DNA from: Deltaproteobacteria bacterium
GTDB taxonomy: Bacteria; Desulfobacterota; Binatia; Binatales; Binataceae
Reading direction: 5' to 3'
Assembly (NCBI GenBank): GCA_021801125.1
Contig: JAJYYI010000023.1
Coordinates: 28,109 to 92,108, forward strand
Length of the DNA stretch: 64,000 bases
Below, one piece after another: positions 21,407 through 25,706 of this stretch. The translations under genes were made by a program, and so were the position numbers. Position 1 is the first letter of the stretch. Each line of letters begins with the position of its first letter. The notes under the pieces were generated by a model. That model worked only from the letters and a program-made list of their open reading frames with translations. It did not search any database and was not told the DNA's origin.

Positions 21407-22615
21407 CTACTTGGCGGGCGGTGCGTACGGGCGGCAGATCAGCACCCTATCGCGCTCGAGGCGCTCGATCTCTGAGGCCGGGTAGCCCAACTCGCGCAGA
21501 ATGCCCGCGTTATCCTCACCGAGCGAAGGCGCCAGGCGGCGAATCTTCGCCGGCGTGCGATCGAAGATCGCCGCCGGACGCGGCTGGCGTATGCGGCCGA
21601 GCGCCGGGCTCTCATGTTCCTCGAAGATGCGGTTTTCGCGAACCTGCGCATCCGTAAGCACCTCACTGCGGCTTAGTATCGGGGCCGCGGGAACATCGTT
21701 GGCGAGCAGCCTCGGCAGTATCTCCTCGCCGCGCCACTTCTCCAGTTCGGCTATCGTGATCGCGCGCCGCTCGGCGCCATTTATCGAGCGGCCATACGCC
21801 GTCTTGAAGCGAGGATCGTCGATCAGGTCCTCGCGATTGAGCGCCCGGCAAAGACCGGCCCATTCGGAGTCCGACAGCGCCGCGACGGTGATATAGCGGT
21901 CCTGCGTAGCGAAGACCAGATCGGGTGCGGGCTCGAACTCGGCGGGGTCCCGCTCGCGGCCGACAAAGGTCAGCGTCGGCATCGCCTCCGGCCAAATATA
22001 AGAAATGGTCGCGTCGAGCATCGCGATCCGAACATGTTGTCCCTGTCCAGTCCGCTCCCGCGCGAAAAGCGCCGCCGAGATCGCCTGAGCCGTCGTCAGC
22101 GCGGTGGTGTAATCGGCGATGATCGTTCGCACCATCTTGGGGCGTCCGGTGTCGCGGTCGCGCTGAATCTCGGCCAAACCGGATAACGCCTGAATCACCG
22201 GATCGTAGGCACGCTTACCGGCGTAAGGGCCGCTCTCGCCATAGCCGCTGATCGAAACGTAAACGATGTCGGGCCGGATCGACCGCACGGCCTTCTCGCC
22301 AAGGCCCAAACGCTCCGCGGTCCCGGAGCGAAAATTGTGCACCAGCACCGCCGATGTCGCGACGAGTTTGCGCACTATCTCGAGGCCTTCAGGCTTTTTC
22401 AGATCGACCGCCAAGGAGCGCTTGTTGCGGTTGCAGGAGACGAACGACGCCGACACGCCGGCGCGGCCGTCGCCCAACTGCCGCATCAGCTCCCCATTCG
22501 GCGGTTCAACTTTGATCACCTCTGCACCCTGGTCGGCCAGCATCATTGACGCCACCGGCCCGGCGACCATCGTGGCGAGGTCCAGGACCCGCACGCCGTC
22601 GAACGCTCCAGCCAT
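21407..22615 (-). CDS. CaiB/BaiF family CoA transferase
   Basis: The 402-residue protein is a class III CoA transferase, which moves CoA between carboxylic acids. Family features: DGVRVLDLATMVAGPVASMMLADQGAEVIKVEPP at the N-terminus, NRNKRSLAVDLKKPEG, the catalytic Asp region SISGYGESGPYAGKRAYDPV (Asp of YDP), and a linker domain in the C-terminal half. It starts 27 bases after the GST stop on the same strand, so the two genes are probably co-transcribed. The substrate is unknown; the divergent SDR and HCCA-like isomerase suggest a CoA-thioester or aromatic-acid pathway. Confidence 0.93.
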   Translation of the reverse strand: MAGAFDGVRVLDLATMVAGPVASMMLADQGAEVIKVEPPNGELMRQLGDGRAGVSASFVSCNRNKRSLAVDLKKPEGLEIVRKLVATSAVLVHNFRSGTAERLGLGEKAVRSIRPDIVYVSISGYGESGPYAGKRAYDPVIQALSGLAEIQRDRDTGRPKMVRTIIADYTTALTTAQAISAALFARERTGQGQHVRIAMLDATISYIWPEAMPTLTFVGRERDPAEFEPAPDLVFATQDRYITVAALSDSEWAGLCRALNREDLIDDPRFKTAYGRSINGAERRAITIAELEKWRGEEILPRLLANDVPAAPILSRSEVLTDAQVRENRIFEEHESPALGRIRQPRPAAIFDRTPAKIRRLAPSLGEDNAGILRELGYPASEIERLERDRVLICRPYAPPAK

Positions 22616-22642: not shown

Positions 22643-23278
22643 CTACTCAGCGTTGTTTCGTTCGCGCGCAGCCTGGTACGCGGGCCGGCGCGCGACTCGC
22701 TCGCGATAGCGTGCCGCGTCCACCGGCAGGGTATGCCCGAGCGACACCGCCCAATCCAAGCAGGTCATCAACAAAATGTCTGCCGCGCTCACGCGATCGC
22801 CGAACAGATAAGGGCCCCTCTCGTCGATGCGCGGCGCCATCGCCTCGATATTCGCCTGGAAGTACCGCTTGGCGGCCTCCACCGCAGCCGGCGCCTCGCC
22901 GTAAATGTGGCTTAGCCCTTCATGGCGGCGGGCGACATACAGCGAGGCCGCGTCGATCTCGGACATGACGAAGTAGCACCATTCGTTGAGCGCCGCCCGG
23001 CCCTTGGCATCATCGGGAGCGTACACCTTGTCGGGGTTAGCGAAAGCCTCGCTGAGGTACTGAATAATCGCCGCGCTCTCCGTCAGCACGAACGACCCAT
23101 GGCGAAGCACCGGGACCTTGCGTCGCGGGTTGAGGCGGATGAACTCGGCGCTTTGCGTCATCGGCGTGCGCGGGCGGATGAGAAAAAACTCGTACTCAAG
23201 TCCAAGCTCCAGCATCATCCAATGCACCCGCATCGTGCGGCTCGTGCCCGCTCCCCATACCGTCAAATCATGCGCCAT
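22643..23278 (-). CDS. glutathione S-transferase family protein
   Basis: The 211-residue protein has an N-terminal thioredoxin-like GST domain (about 1-80). The glutathione gamma-Glu site is in FVLTESAAIIQYLSEAF, the cis-Pro in KVPVLRHG, and a Ser/Thr-rich loop in GAGTSRTMRVHWMMLELG. The helical C-terminal domain has YLFGDRVSAADILLMTCLDW, with the conserved N-capping box Asp. It probably conjugates or isomerises an electrophile. It leads the minus-strand pair with the CoA transferase and is divergent from the TetR gene. Confidence 0.92.
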   Translation of the reverse strand: MAHDLTVWGAGTSRTMRVHWMMLELGLEYEFFLIRPRTPMTQSAEFIRLNPRRKVPVLRHGSFVLTESAAIIQYLSEAFANPDKVYAPDDAKGRAALNEWCYFVMSEIDAASLYVARRHEGLSHIYGEAPAAVEAAKRYFQANIEAMAPRIDERGPYLFGDRVSAADILLMTCLDWAVSLGHTLPVDAARYRERVARRPAYQAARERNNAE

Positions 23279-23633
23279 AACCGTCGCTCCTCCGATCCAC
23301 GCTTGTCTCGCAACGCTCCAGCCTCGAACTCAAGGCCCCGGCCCGCGCCGCTCGAATTGTAGGATACTAGAATTTATCCGGAATCGCTCGGCGTCTAAGC
23401 CCGCGCTATTATCAGCCCGCAAGGCCGCCATTCTTCCCGTGTCGCCGGCCGCGCGGCGGGATTACCTGAAACCGGCTCGCCGCCCAGTCGCCGTTACAGC
23501 CGCCCTGCGCTTTGCGGCGCCGTCCCAGAACCTATTGATGACGCTCGTCATCGTTGATACATTAATGACGAACGTAATCAAAAGAGTCAAGCGTATCGGG
23601 ACGAGCGCAGAGAAAGGAATCGGCAGGGCTGCC
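23279..23633. other. divergent control region between GST and TetR genes
   Basis: This 355-base region separates the GST start from the TetR start. The part near 23535-23578 holds a likely TetR promoter with two related palindromes. The rest has no gene I can support. A long plus-strand open frame runs through it from 23118 but overlaps the GST coding region and reads as low-complexity sequence. Confidence 0.5.
23535..23578 (+). promoter_or_regulatory. probable TetR promoter with two operator palindromes
   Basis: TTGATG (23535-23540) and TACATT (23558-23563) are spaced by 17 bases and resemble -35/-10 elements. Two related palindromes overlap them: ATGACG-CT-CGTCAT (23538-23551, perfect) and ATGACG-AA-CGTAAT (23565-23578, one mismatch), with centres 27 bp apart. 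This placement would let TetR block its own transcription and possibly that of the divergent GST gene. Confidence 0.5.
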
Positions 23634-24356
23634 ATGCGTGTTTCAAGGCAACAGGCCGCGCAAAATCGCCGGAACATACTAACGACGGCCTCTCGTCTAT
23701 TTCGCGAGCGAGGAATCGGCGCCACCGGCGTCGACGCGATCACCGAGGAAGCCGGTTTGACGCACGGAGCGATCTACAGCCGGTTCGGCTCCAAGGAGGA
23801 GATCGCGGCGCAGGCGATCGGCGACGCGCTCGAGAGTTCGGCAAAGCTTTGGCGGCGCATGATCGAGCGCGAGGGACGCGACCAAGCGTTTTCGTTGATC
23901 GTGGACGCCTACCTCTCACCCGCGCATCGCGACCGTCCCGGCCAAGGATGCGTCGTCGCCGCTCTCGGCGGCGAGCTTGCGCGCCAGTCGGCCGCAGTGC
24001 GCCAAGCGTTCACGAATCAATTGAAGGAAGCCCTGGGCGTGCTGGCCGGCGCGATACCGCGCCGCGCTTCTTCGCGGGTCTATGACGACGCTATCGCGGC
24101 GTTTGTTGCGATGGCCGGGGCCTTAATTATCGCGCGCGCAGTGGGCGATGAAAGATTCTCCACGCGAATTTTGAACGCGACGGCCGCAAGAGTGCGCGTT
24201 CTCGCGTCAGGACGCGCGTCCCCAACGCGGACGCGCCGGAAGGCCCGGTCCGGCACGGCGGGCTCGCCGCCGCGAAGAGGCCGATCGGTCGCAACCGGAG
24301 CGGATCGAGCAGCGGCGGGACGCGGGGCGATCAAGGACAAGGAGGAGGATCAGTGA
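23634..24356 (+). CDS. TetR/AcrR family transcriptional regulator
   Basis: From ATG 23634 the protein has 240 residues. The N-terminal TetR helix-turn-helix is clear: RRNILTTASRLFRERGIGAT, GVDAITEEAGLTHGAIYSRF and GSKEEIAAQAI. The C-terminal ligand domain is helical (GQGCVVAALGGELARQ). The last about 50 residues are Arg/Ala/Gly-rich and likely disordered, longer than usual. In-frame starts at 23538 and 23565 lie inside the promoter/operator and are less likely. The stop overlaps the GTG start of the SDR gene by four bases, so TetR, SDR and isomerase form one operon. Confidence 0.9.
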   Translation: MRVSRQQAAQNRRNILTTASRLFRERGIGATGVDAITEEAGLTHGAIYSRFGSKEEIAAQAIGDALESSAKLWRRMIEREGRDQAFSLIVDAYLSPAHRDRPGQGCVVAALGGELARQSAAVRQAFTNQLKEALGVLAGAIPRRASSRVYDDAIAAFVAMAGALIIARAVGDERFSTRILNATAARVRVLASGRASPTRTRRKARSGTAGSPPRRGRSVATGADRAAAGRGAIKDKEEDQ

Positions 24357-25096
24357 ACAGCCGCAACGCCAGCGTGGCGGTGATCGGCGCGGGGGATTAT
24401 ATCGGCGCCGCCGTGGCAAAAAGATTCGCCGCCGAGGGTTTCACGATTTTCGCCGGACGGCGCAACGGCGACAAGCTCGCGCCTTTGGTCGCGGATATCG
24501 AGGGCGCGGGCGGCCGGATCTTCGCGCGCTCGCTCGACGCGCGCAAGGAAGATGAAATCGCCGCTTTTCTGCAGGACGCGGACCACCTAGCGCCCCTGGA
24601 GGTCTGCGTCTATAACGTCGGAGGCAACGTCAATTATCCGCTGCTGGAGACGACCGAACGCGTATTCCGCAAGGTTTGGGAGATGAGCTGTTACGGCGGG
24701 TTCCTGGCGGGCCGCGAGGCGGCGCGTCTGATGCTCGGGCGCGGCCGCGGGTGCATCTTTTTCACCGGCGCGACGGCGAGTCTGCGCGGCGGCGTCGGAT
24801 ACGCCGCGTTCGCCAGCGCCAAGTTCGGCCTGCGCGCCGTCGCGCAAAGCGCGGCGCGGGAGCTGGGACCGAAGAACATACACGTCGCTCATTTAATCAT
24901 CGACGCGGGAGTGGACACGGCTTGGGTGCGCGACATGATAAGGCAACGCGAGGGGGAAGCGGGGCTGCGCAATCTTGAGCCCGACCGCCTCATGAAGCCC
25001 GCGTCGGTGGCGGAAGCCTACTGGCAGCTTTATCGGCAGCCGCGCGACGCCTGGACTTTCGAACAGGAGATTCGTCCTTACGGGGAGAAATGGTGA
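24353..25096 (+). CDS. SDR family oxidoreductase lacking the catalytic Tyr
   Basis: The 247-residue protein has a Rossmann fold with a variant glycine motif (VIGAGDYIGAAVAKRF), a conserved Asp (SLDARKEDE) and an N-x-G-like segment (VYNVGGNVNY). Where short-chain dehydrogenases have Y-x3-K it has F-ASA-K (Phe153, Lys157), with a Tyr three residues earlier at 150. The sequence around it (SAKFGLRAVAQSAARELGP, then HVAHLIIDAGVDTAWV) resembles a known SDR subgroup, but its catalysis must differ or be absent. The GTG start overlaps the TetR stop. The isomerase gene starts 4 bases after its stop. Confidence 0.88.
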   Translation: MNSRNASVAVIGAGDYIGAAVAKRFAAEGFTIFAGRRNGDKLAPLVADIEGAGGRIFARSLDARKEDEIAAFLQDADHLAPLEVCVYNVGGNVNYPLLETTERVFRKVWEMSCYGGFLAGREAARLMLGRGRGCIFFTGATASLRGGVGYAAFASAKFGLRAVAQSAARELGPKNIHVAHLIIDAGVDTAWVRDMIRQREGEAGLRNLEPDRLMKPASVAEAYWQLYRQPRDAWTFEQEIRPYGEKW

Positions 25097-25100
25097 AGTT

Positions 25101-25706
25101 ATGGCTAGGGTGGAATTTCATTTCGATTTCGGCAGCCCCAATTCGTACCTCGCCCATCTAGTGATTCCCGCGATCGAGCAGCGCACCGGCGCCAAGTTCG
25201 AGTATGTACCGATTCTGCTCGGCGGGGTCTTCAAGCTTACGAACAATCGTTCGCCGATCGAGGCGTTCGGCGGGGTCAAAAACAAGCTCGAATACGAACG
25301 GCTGGAGATTAGCCGCTTTATCCGGAAACACGGGATCACCCAGTTCAAGCTCAATCCGCATTTTCCGGTGAACACGCTGGCGCTGATGCGGGGCGCGATT
25401 GCCGCACAATCGTTGGGCGTGTTCGAGCGCTACGTCGAGGAGATGTTCCGGCATATGTGGGCCGACCCGAAGAAGATGGACGACCCCCAGGTGCTGCGCG
25501 CGGCGCTCGATGAATCGCGCATGCCCGCCGAACGAATCATCGAGCTGGCTCAAAGCCCAGCGGTCAAGGAACAGTTGCTGCAAAACACGCAGCGGACGGT
25601 CGAGCGCGGAACCTTCGGCGCACCCACTTTCTTTGTCGGGGAAGAGATTTTCTTCGGCAAGGATCGGCTGCGCGACGTCGAGGAATTCCTTCTCGGAACC
25701 CGATAA
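25101..25706 (+). CDS. DsbA-fold 2-hydroxychromene-2-carboxylate isomerase-like protein
   Basis: The 201-residue protein has a thioredoxin fold with a long helical insertion, like HCCA isomerase and kappa-class GST. The N-terminal motif FHFDFGSPNSYLAHL has Ser in place of the DsbA CxxC, as in glutathione-dependent HCCA isomerases. The C-terminal GTFGAPTFFVGEEIFFGKDR has the conserved cis-Pro and last strand. HCCA isomerase acts in naphthalene breakdown, but many homologues have other or unknown substrates. It is the last gene of the TetR operon. Confidence 0.88.
   Translation: MARVEFHFDFGSPNSYLAHLVIPAIEQRTGAKFEYVPILLGGVFKLTNNRSPIEAFGGVKNKLEYERLEISRFIRKHGITQFKLNPHFPVNTLALMRGAIAAQSLGVFERYVEEMFRHMWADPKKMDDPQVLRAALDESRMPAERIIELAQSPAVKEQLLQNTQRTVERGTFGAPTFFVGEEIFFGKDRLRDVEEFLLGTR

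Follow-up and report, generated by a model that had tools for sequence, protein, structure and literature searches.

Paired palindromic operators before a TetR gene of Binatota: a very probable self-repressing switch with a possible electrophile signal

Introduction

In the tetR/tetA system of Tn10 a TetR repressor acts at two tandem palindromic operators within a short divergent promoter region. The locus presented here has in common with it a TetR-fold repressor and two putative operators between the repressor gene and its probable target genes, so that the arrangement appears, by analogy, to be already known in kind, although Tn10 has other operator sequences, another spacing, another class of ligand and other target genes. 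NemR of E. coli (nemRA-gloA) shares with our regulator the fold, a cysteine at position 106 and a link to electrophile-handling enzymes, and two of the homologous loci (L053 and L070) carry a divergent gene of the Old Yellow Enzyme family, much as nemA follows nemR; one difference lies in Lys175 of NemR, which is replaced by Arg168 here. In a NemR-based sensor, Cys106 was required for the response and Lys175 was dispensable, according to extracts of that report (PMC8748444).

Other thiol-linked regulators offer further comparisons. AltR of Pantoea ananatis, according to extracts of its report (PMC13178969), is a TetR protein that represses its own gene through an inverted repeat in the promoter and requires a conserved Cys100 for its response. 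It resembles our putative autorepressor in this self-control, in the inverted repeat and, by description, in the one essential cysteine, and is unlike it in its operator (CAATCTAC-N6-GTAGATTG), its thiosulfinate ligand and its target genes. DitR of Stenotrophomonas, again from extracts (PMC9342713), is a thiol-responsive TetR repressor with several boxes across one promoter, one of them between -35 and -10, a layout comparable to the one seen here, although DitR has cysteines 92 and 127 and an MFS-transporter operon as its target. At the level of enzymes, the isoGHIJ/styGHIJ glutathione epoxide pathways show the same combination of glutathione S-transferase (GST), SDR and family III CoA-transferase (extracts of PMC10057887), while our locus has an isomerase-like gene of DsbA fold where those have a second GST. 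Binatota are a little-studied phylum, called yet-uncultured in the title of PMC8262859, and two matching operators, a single-cysteine repressor and a short promoter make an experimentally easy handle on regulation in this group.

Gene content of the locus

The window is the whole stretch of 64,000 nucleotides that was analysed, and its relevant features are the following, with positions counted within it.

21407..22615, minus strand: CaiB-type (family III) CoA-transferase, divergent
22643..23278, minus strand: GST family protein, divergent
23535..23554, no strand: putative operator 1, core ATGACGctCGTCAT at 23538-23551; the left flank TTG lengthens the half-site
23535..23563, plus strand: candidate forward promoter P1, TTGATG (23535-23540)-17-TACATT (23558-23563), which would place operator 1 on the -35 box and operator 2 on the start
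23562..23581, no strand: putative operator 2, core ATGACGaaCGTAAT at 23565-23578; the right flank CAA mirrors the TTG of operator 1
23586..23591, no strand: GTCAAG element, 7 bp 3' of operator 2; read on the complementary strand, as CTTGAC, it looks like a leftward -35 box
23634..24356, plus strand: TetR-family regulator, 240 aa, with Cys106 as sole cysteine
24353..25096, plus strand: SDR-family dehydrogenase with a GTG start
25101..25706, plus strand: DsbA-fold protein, 2-hydroxychromene-2-carboxylate isomerase-like (58% identity to a Bradyrhizobium protein so annotated)

The two operators thus lie between divergently read genes, in the 355 bp gap between the GST gene and tetR. Since the SDR start and the tetR stop share 4 bp and the isomerase-like gene begins four bases past the SDR gene, tetR-SDR-isomerase looks like one operon, and the GST and CaiB-type CoA-transferase genes form a leftward pair. 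The tetR frame stays open further upstream, with in-frame ATGs inside both operators (23538 and 23565), and the MRVS start at 23634 was chosen because it is common to the aligned orthologs. Neither nemA nor gloA was found among the cluster genes scanned (GST, CaiB, SDR and isomerase-like).

Among 11 Binatota relatives, an SDR gene follows tetR in ten and the isomerase gene is present in nine. GST and CaiB are both divergent in four and CaiB alone in one, several of the contigs ending early; the divergent gene is an enoyl-CoA hydratase in G024 and a molybdopterin oxidoreductase in G089. Relatives have additional SDR genes; at the G023 locus there are also genes for an acyl-CoA dehydrogenase, a glyoxalase-fold protein and a molybdopterin oxidoreductase. 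At six related loci (L028 to L032 and L034) an extra SDR gene stands directly divergent from tetR; a remnant of it was sought in the GST-tetR gap of the window, where a 10-residue match (E 0.42) was all that appeared.

A Bradyrhizobium plasmid carries homologs of the isomerase (58%), the CoA-transferase (51%), the GST (45%) and the SDR (74%) together. On conjugative Bradyrhizobium plasmids (L037 and L039) the genes for the isomerase, a GST-type protein and an SDR, and in L037 also that for the CoA-transferase, are accompanied by acyl-CoA dehydrogenase and thiolase genes, and a gene annotated as a helix-turn-helix protein adjoins the isomerase. We also compared the enzymes with a cluster of the Gordonia plasmid pGCWB2, which we take to be the styrene glutathione pathway. 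The CoA-transferases are 44% identical over 387 residues, the window GST matches one Gordonia GST weakly (25% identity over 209 positions) with no match listed to the other, and the two SDRs gave no blastp match at E 1e-4. With the SDR unmatched and the GST weakly matched, membership in the isoprene/styrene glutathione pathways was rejected, and the way the window set works may at best be analogous to an epoxide-glutathione pathway.

The two operators and their conservation in Binatota

Both palindromes are where the sequence-only reading had put them, with the sequences it gave. Operator 1 is a perfect 16-bp palindrome (GATGACGCTCGTCATC) and operator 2 has a single mismatch to the consensus of operator 1. 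The distance of 27 bp between them, earlier given as how far apart they lie, holds from start to start, whereas the gap is 13 bp. Operator 2 ends 55 bp before the tetR start, and operator 1 lies about 257 bp from the GST start (23278).

Twelve orthologs of the TetR protein were gathered (51-66% identity), 11 of them from the 96 genomes searched, source genome included, plus G101; four weak matches (32-36% identity) were excluded. One ortholog, G011, has 43 bp of upstream sequence only and was left out of the site counts, leaving 11 testable. The region upstream of orthologous TetR genes had been named beforehand as the place where absence of the palindromes would count against the proposal. 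Both operators are kept in eight of the 11 by eye, counting a weak operator 2 in G023 and a 26-bp spacing in G089, and one in the other three: G010 has operator 2 with a poor operator 1, and G060 and G080 have operator 1 with a poor operator 2. The pair is also present in 27 of 78 homologs at large (see below), and on this check the proposal came through. GTCAAG is kept in 11/11. When 10 Binatota sequences (the window and nine others, without G060 and G080) are aligned on GTCAAG, the 62 columns running from just before operator 1 to GTCAAG average 1.27 bits each, and the flanking stretches of 10 columns 0.19 and 0.42 bits; we estimate that sampling alone would give about 0.2 bits with ten sequences. 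G001 (L010/L043) also shows, some 22 bp further upstream than operator 1, a third and weaker operator unit that seems to have arisen by tandem duplication.

The sites, their conservation, the divergent gene order and an invariant cysteine (see below) are the starting points of the reading that we prefer, and to which, taken whole, we give a probability of roughly three in four. The palindromes would be binding sites of the TetR encoded 55 bp downstream, and one TetR dimer per site would cover a compact bidirectional promoter and so repress the rightward tetR-SDR-isomerase operon and, probably, the leftward GST-CaiB pair. An epoxide, an enone, an aldehyde or some such reactive electrophile is the likely signal and would modify Cys106; the modified TetR would leave the DNA, and the glutathione- and CoA-linked enzyme set so induced might conjugate, oxidise, activate and deconjugate the compound. 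As judged from sequence, this is very probably a self-repressing switch, ordinary in kind.

The TetR protein and its possible signal

The regulator has a TetR_N helix-turn-helix at its N-terminus (PF00440, 53.2 bits against a cut-off of 24), and its predicted structure is a normal all-helical TetR fold of 10 helices (mean pLDDT 81.7). Among the 50 Foldseek neighbours listed, the best PDB match is 2fd5 (TMt 0.84), followed by PA2196 and then by NemR. The only cysteine, Cys106, aligns with Cys106 of NemR and is invariant in 80/80 sequences (the window and 79 homologs, one of the 80 loci having been dropped as too short). The C-terminal domain has three such invariant residues, Cys106 among them. 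Cys106 is the sole cysteine in 38 of the 80, about half of the homologs having further ones. Since the homologs were found through peptide patterns in the DNA-binding domain, this residue was not selected for by the search. The position of Lys175 of NemR is an arginine in all 80.

An invariant Cys106 fits an electrophile inducer, and sensing through it is plausible from the alignment. A cysteine at the same position also occurs in other TetR proteins, for example 2fd5 and 3qbm, so Cys106 may line the pocket rather than sense thiol-reactive compounds. It is conceivable, at somewhat below even odds, that TetR binds the sites and answers a non-covalent ligand such as an acyl-CoA or an aromatic pathway intermediate, with Cys106 in a structural role. 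The 50 structural neighbours listed include the fatty-acid regulators FadR (also with stearoyl-CoA) and FasR and the resorcinol-binding RolR, and the Binatota cluster or its surroundings contain genes for CoA-transferase, acyl-CoA dehydrogenase and enoyl-CoA hydratase, as would suit such a ligand. What speaks for the electrophile instead is the invariance of the cysteine in every sequence aligned, together with the carbonyl- and enone-handling enzymes that adjoin tetR in several other groups, though thiolase and MaoC-like genes occur there too (L057 and L064). The earlier suggestion of an electrophilic or aromatic ligand is to this extent narrowed: its electrophilic half is favoured circumstantially, by Cys106 and the neighbouring enzymes, and its aromatic half gained no support. 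If the electrophile reading is true, a repressor with a single cysteine could become a simple biosensor.

Promoter placement and the divergent genes

A scan for sigma-70 consensus boxes requiring 9 of 12 positions found no promoter over 23250-23700. The best forward candidate in the window is P1, TTGATG-17-TACATT, which matches 8 of 12 and whose -35 is partly palindrome flank. By a home-made score, applied to 25 sequences (10 of 12 from Binatota, without G060 and G080, and 15 of 21 from proteobacteria), the same position is best in 6/10 Binatota sequences, window included, whereas in 14 of the 15 selected proteobacterial sequences operator 2 falls within the spacer of the best forward candidate, the clearest being TTGAAT-17-TATAAT. 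The earlier proposal that the operators overlap the -35 and -10/start regions of a sigma-70 promoter is less secure than the sites themselves: it agrees with the best-scoring forward candidate of the window, but this matches 8 of 12, and in the proteobacterial homologs another position scores best.

In the leftward direction the best window candidates are TTGACT-18-ATTAAT and TTGACT-17-CATTAA, neither with a convincing -10. GTCAA(G) stands 6-7 bp 3' of operator 2 irrespective of operator spacing (25/27 paired homologs). Its complement, CTTGAC, in itself a good -35 sequence, was considered as a leftward -35 box, a role that would suit the divergent layout and the fixed distance, and was set aside as most of the 25 sequences offer no good -10 at 16-19 bp. 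Alternative candidate roles for GTCAAG are the start region of the rightward transcript or an extra contact.

The control of tetR-SDR-isomerase by TetR is well supported by the sequence comparisons. That TetR regulates its own operon, as first proposed, gains strong support from the sites found before orthologous and homologous tetR genes in two phyla, and the protein is almost surely an autorepressor. The GST-CaiB pair had been added with a "perhaps": the nearest upstream ORF is on the opposite strand in 27/27 loci, but the GST start is some 257 bp away and a leftward promoter is uncertain. The orientation was taken from the nearer of the two best-scored upstream ORFs, called by codon composition; the call is doubtful for L047, L053, L054 and L073, L047 having been confirmed by gene-content comparison, and these 27 loci are a different set from the 27 paired loci described below, with 21 in common. 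As the nearest called upstream ORF is on the opposite strand in all of these loci, control of GST-CaiB by TetR is likely.

The operators might, alternatively, serve the rightward tetR operon only, GST-CaiB having a promoter of its own within the 257 bp and no TetR regulation. We regard this as rather unlikely, even though the long distance in the window and the lack of a convincing leftward -10 box agree with it, because of the opposite-strand neighbours just mentioned, the fixed place of CTTGAC, and the much shorter distances elsewhere, operator 1 lying about 128 bp from the GST start in G001 and about 43 bp from the start of a divergent SDR gene in G023.

Paired operators beyond Binatota

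To go beyond the phylum, an alignment-based search with peptide patterns in the DNA-binding domain was used, a search with the single protein having given none; 80 homologs were kept of 436 found, 78 of them with enough upstream DNA (6 from Binatota). A pair was counted where the spacing was 24-29 bp and the score reached 18 of 24; by this rule it occurs before tetR in 27 of the 78 homologs (4 Binatota) against 0/1950 shuffles, which preserve base composition only. The spacing is exactly 27 bp in 15 of the 27, and GTCAA follows operator 2 by 6-7 bp in 25, where about 1% would be expected. Homologs of tetR in Rhizobium, Bradyrhizobium, Hyphomicrobium, Acetobacteraceae and Sphingomonas have the whole module in front of them, with two sites, a gap between these and, after 6-7 bp, GTCAA. 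Both sites are perfect at seven Rhizobium-type loci, in one case at a 28-bp spacing. At the threshold used, 51 of the 78 homologs show no pair, including all those from Paenibacillus and Actinoplanes.

The neighbours of the module change from group to group, from an aldo/keto reductase in Rhizobium, to an SDR and a zinc alcohol dehydrogenase in Bradyrhizobium, and an SDR with an NADH:flavin oxidoreductase of the Old Yellow Enzyme family in Sphingomonas. Elsewhere tetR is accompanied by genes for an alpha/beta hydrolase, an Old Yellow Enzyme-family reductase and a GST-like protein together, or by thiolase, ketopantoate-reductase-like, MaoC-like and MatE genes, this survey including L057, L064 and L069, which are outside the 27 paired loci. 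As the module precedes tetR homologs with differing neighbours, the sites follow the regulator rather than the enzymes. It is very improbable, then, that another regulator binds the palindromes or that they form a structural part of the promoter. Such a view can appeal to TetR binding being deduced here from sequence, but the motif goes with this tetR subfamily in two phyla despite different neighbours, and its exact form is found nowhere else in the 3.5-Mb genome.

In our preferred reading, of a TetR switch acting through these sites, the module predicts the operator of the homologous TetR proteins of Rhizobium, Bradyrhizobium and Sphingomonas, for which a literature search found no paper. 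Among the results listed for the operator sequence with TetR, judged by title and first lines of the abstract, there was likewise no paper that looked related, a text search of this type missing sequences that are spaced or shown in figures, and the paired operators are, as far as found, undescribed in this regulator group. We suggest, quite tentatively, that they may mark an undescribed and widespread class of TetR electrophile switches, with one invariant sensing cysteine and a portable module (operator, 10-14 bp, operator, 6-7 bp, GTCAA), one site of which would sit in the spacer of two face-to-face promoters, and that in Binatota a glutathione- and CoA-linked pathway for consuming epoxides or enones might have been captured by this module.

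Distribution of the sites across genomes

The operator pair is genuine and beyond chance. Operators 1 and 2 are the only sites of the window with at most one mismatch; with at most two there are 7 matches against a shuffled mean of 2.18, a number attained in 2/100 shuffles. In 300 windows simulated with an order-1 Markov model there were on average 0.15 sites with at most one mismatch, an exact site appeared in one window, and paired sites (at most one mismatch, within 60 bp) in none. Simulations, shuffles and above all the conservation, which refutes it, leave chance palindromes with practically no probability.

Throughout the 3.5-Mb assembly of 150 contigs the exact pattern ATGACGNNCGTNATC (one degenerate base) occurs at this locus only, and one-mismatch forms account for 27 further rows (some 25 places), all rows amounting to 30 against 8 for a backwards control pattern. 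Four of the roughly 25 places were inspected (C68, C3, C29 and C59) and all fall within ORFs. A relaxed pair pattern, strict enough to overlook most orthologs, hits 2 places in 148 genomes of the class, the window and the G040 ortholog, both before this tetR. A local switch is preferred over a wider regulon, although sites elsewhere in the genome may belong to one, given that one-mismatch sites are commoner than the reversed control and that four of the 25 or so places were inspected.

In proteobacteria the exact 14-mer occurs in 12 of the 14 genomes searched, with 1 to 6 sites each and 36 in total. Eighteen loci of these 36 sites, corresponding to 16 distinct places, were inspected and comprise 6 tetR pairs (in L132 a spurious antisense ORF overlies the pair), 9 single sites within ORFs and one between ORFs (L136). 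In five more distant homologs (L086, L092, L098, L110 and L113) a single variant palindrome of the type ATGATGNNCATCAT is found upstream of tetR, which suggests a wider operator code for this TetR branch.
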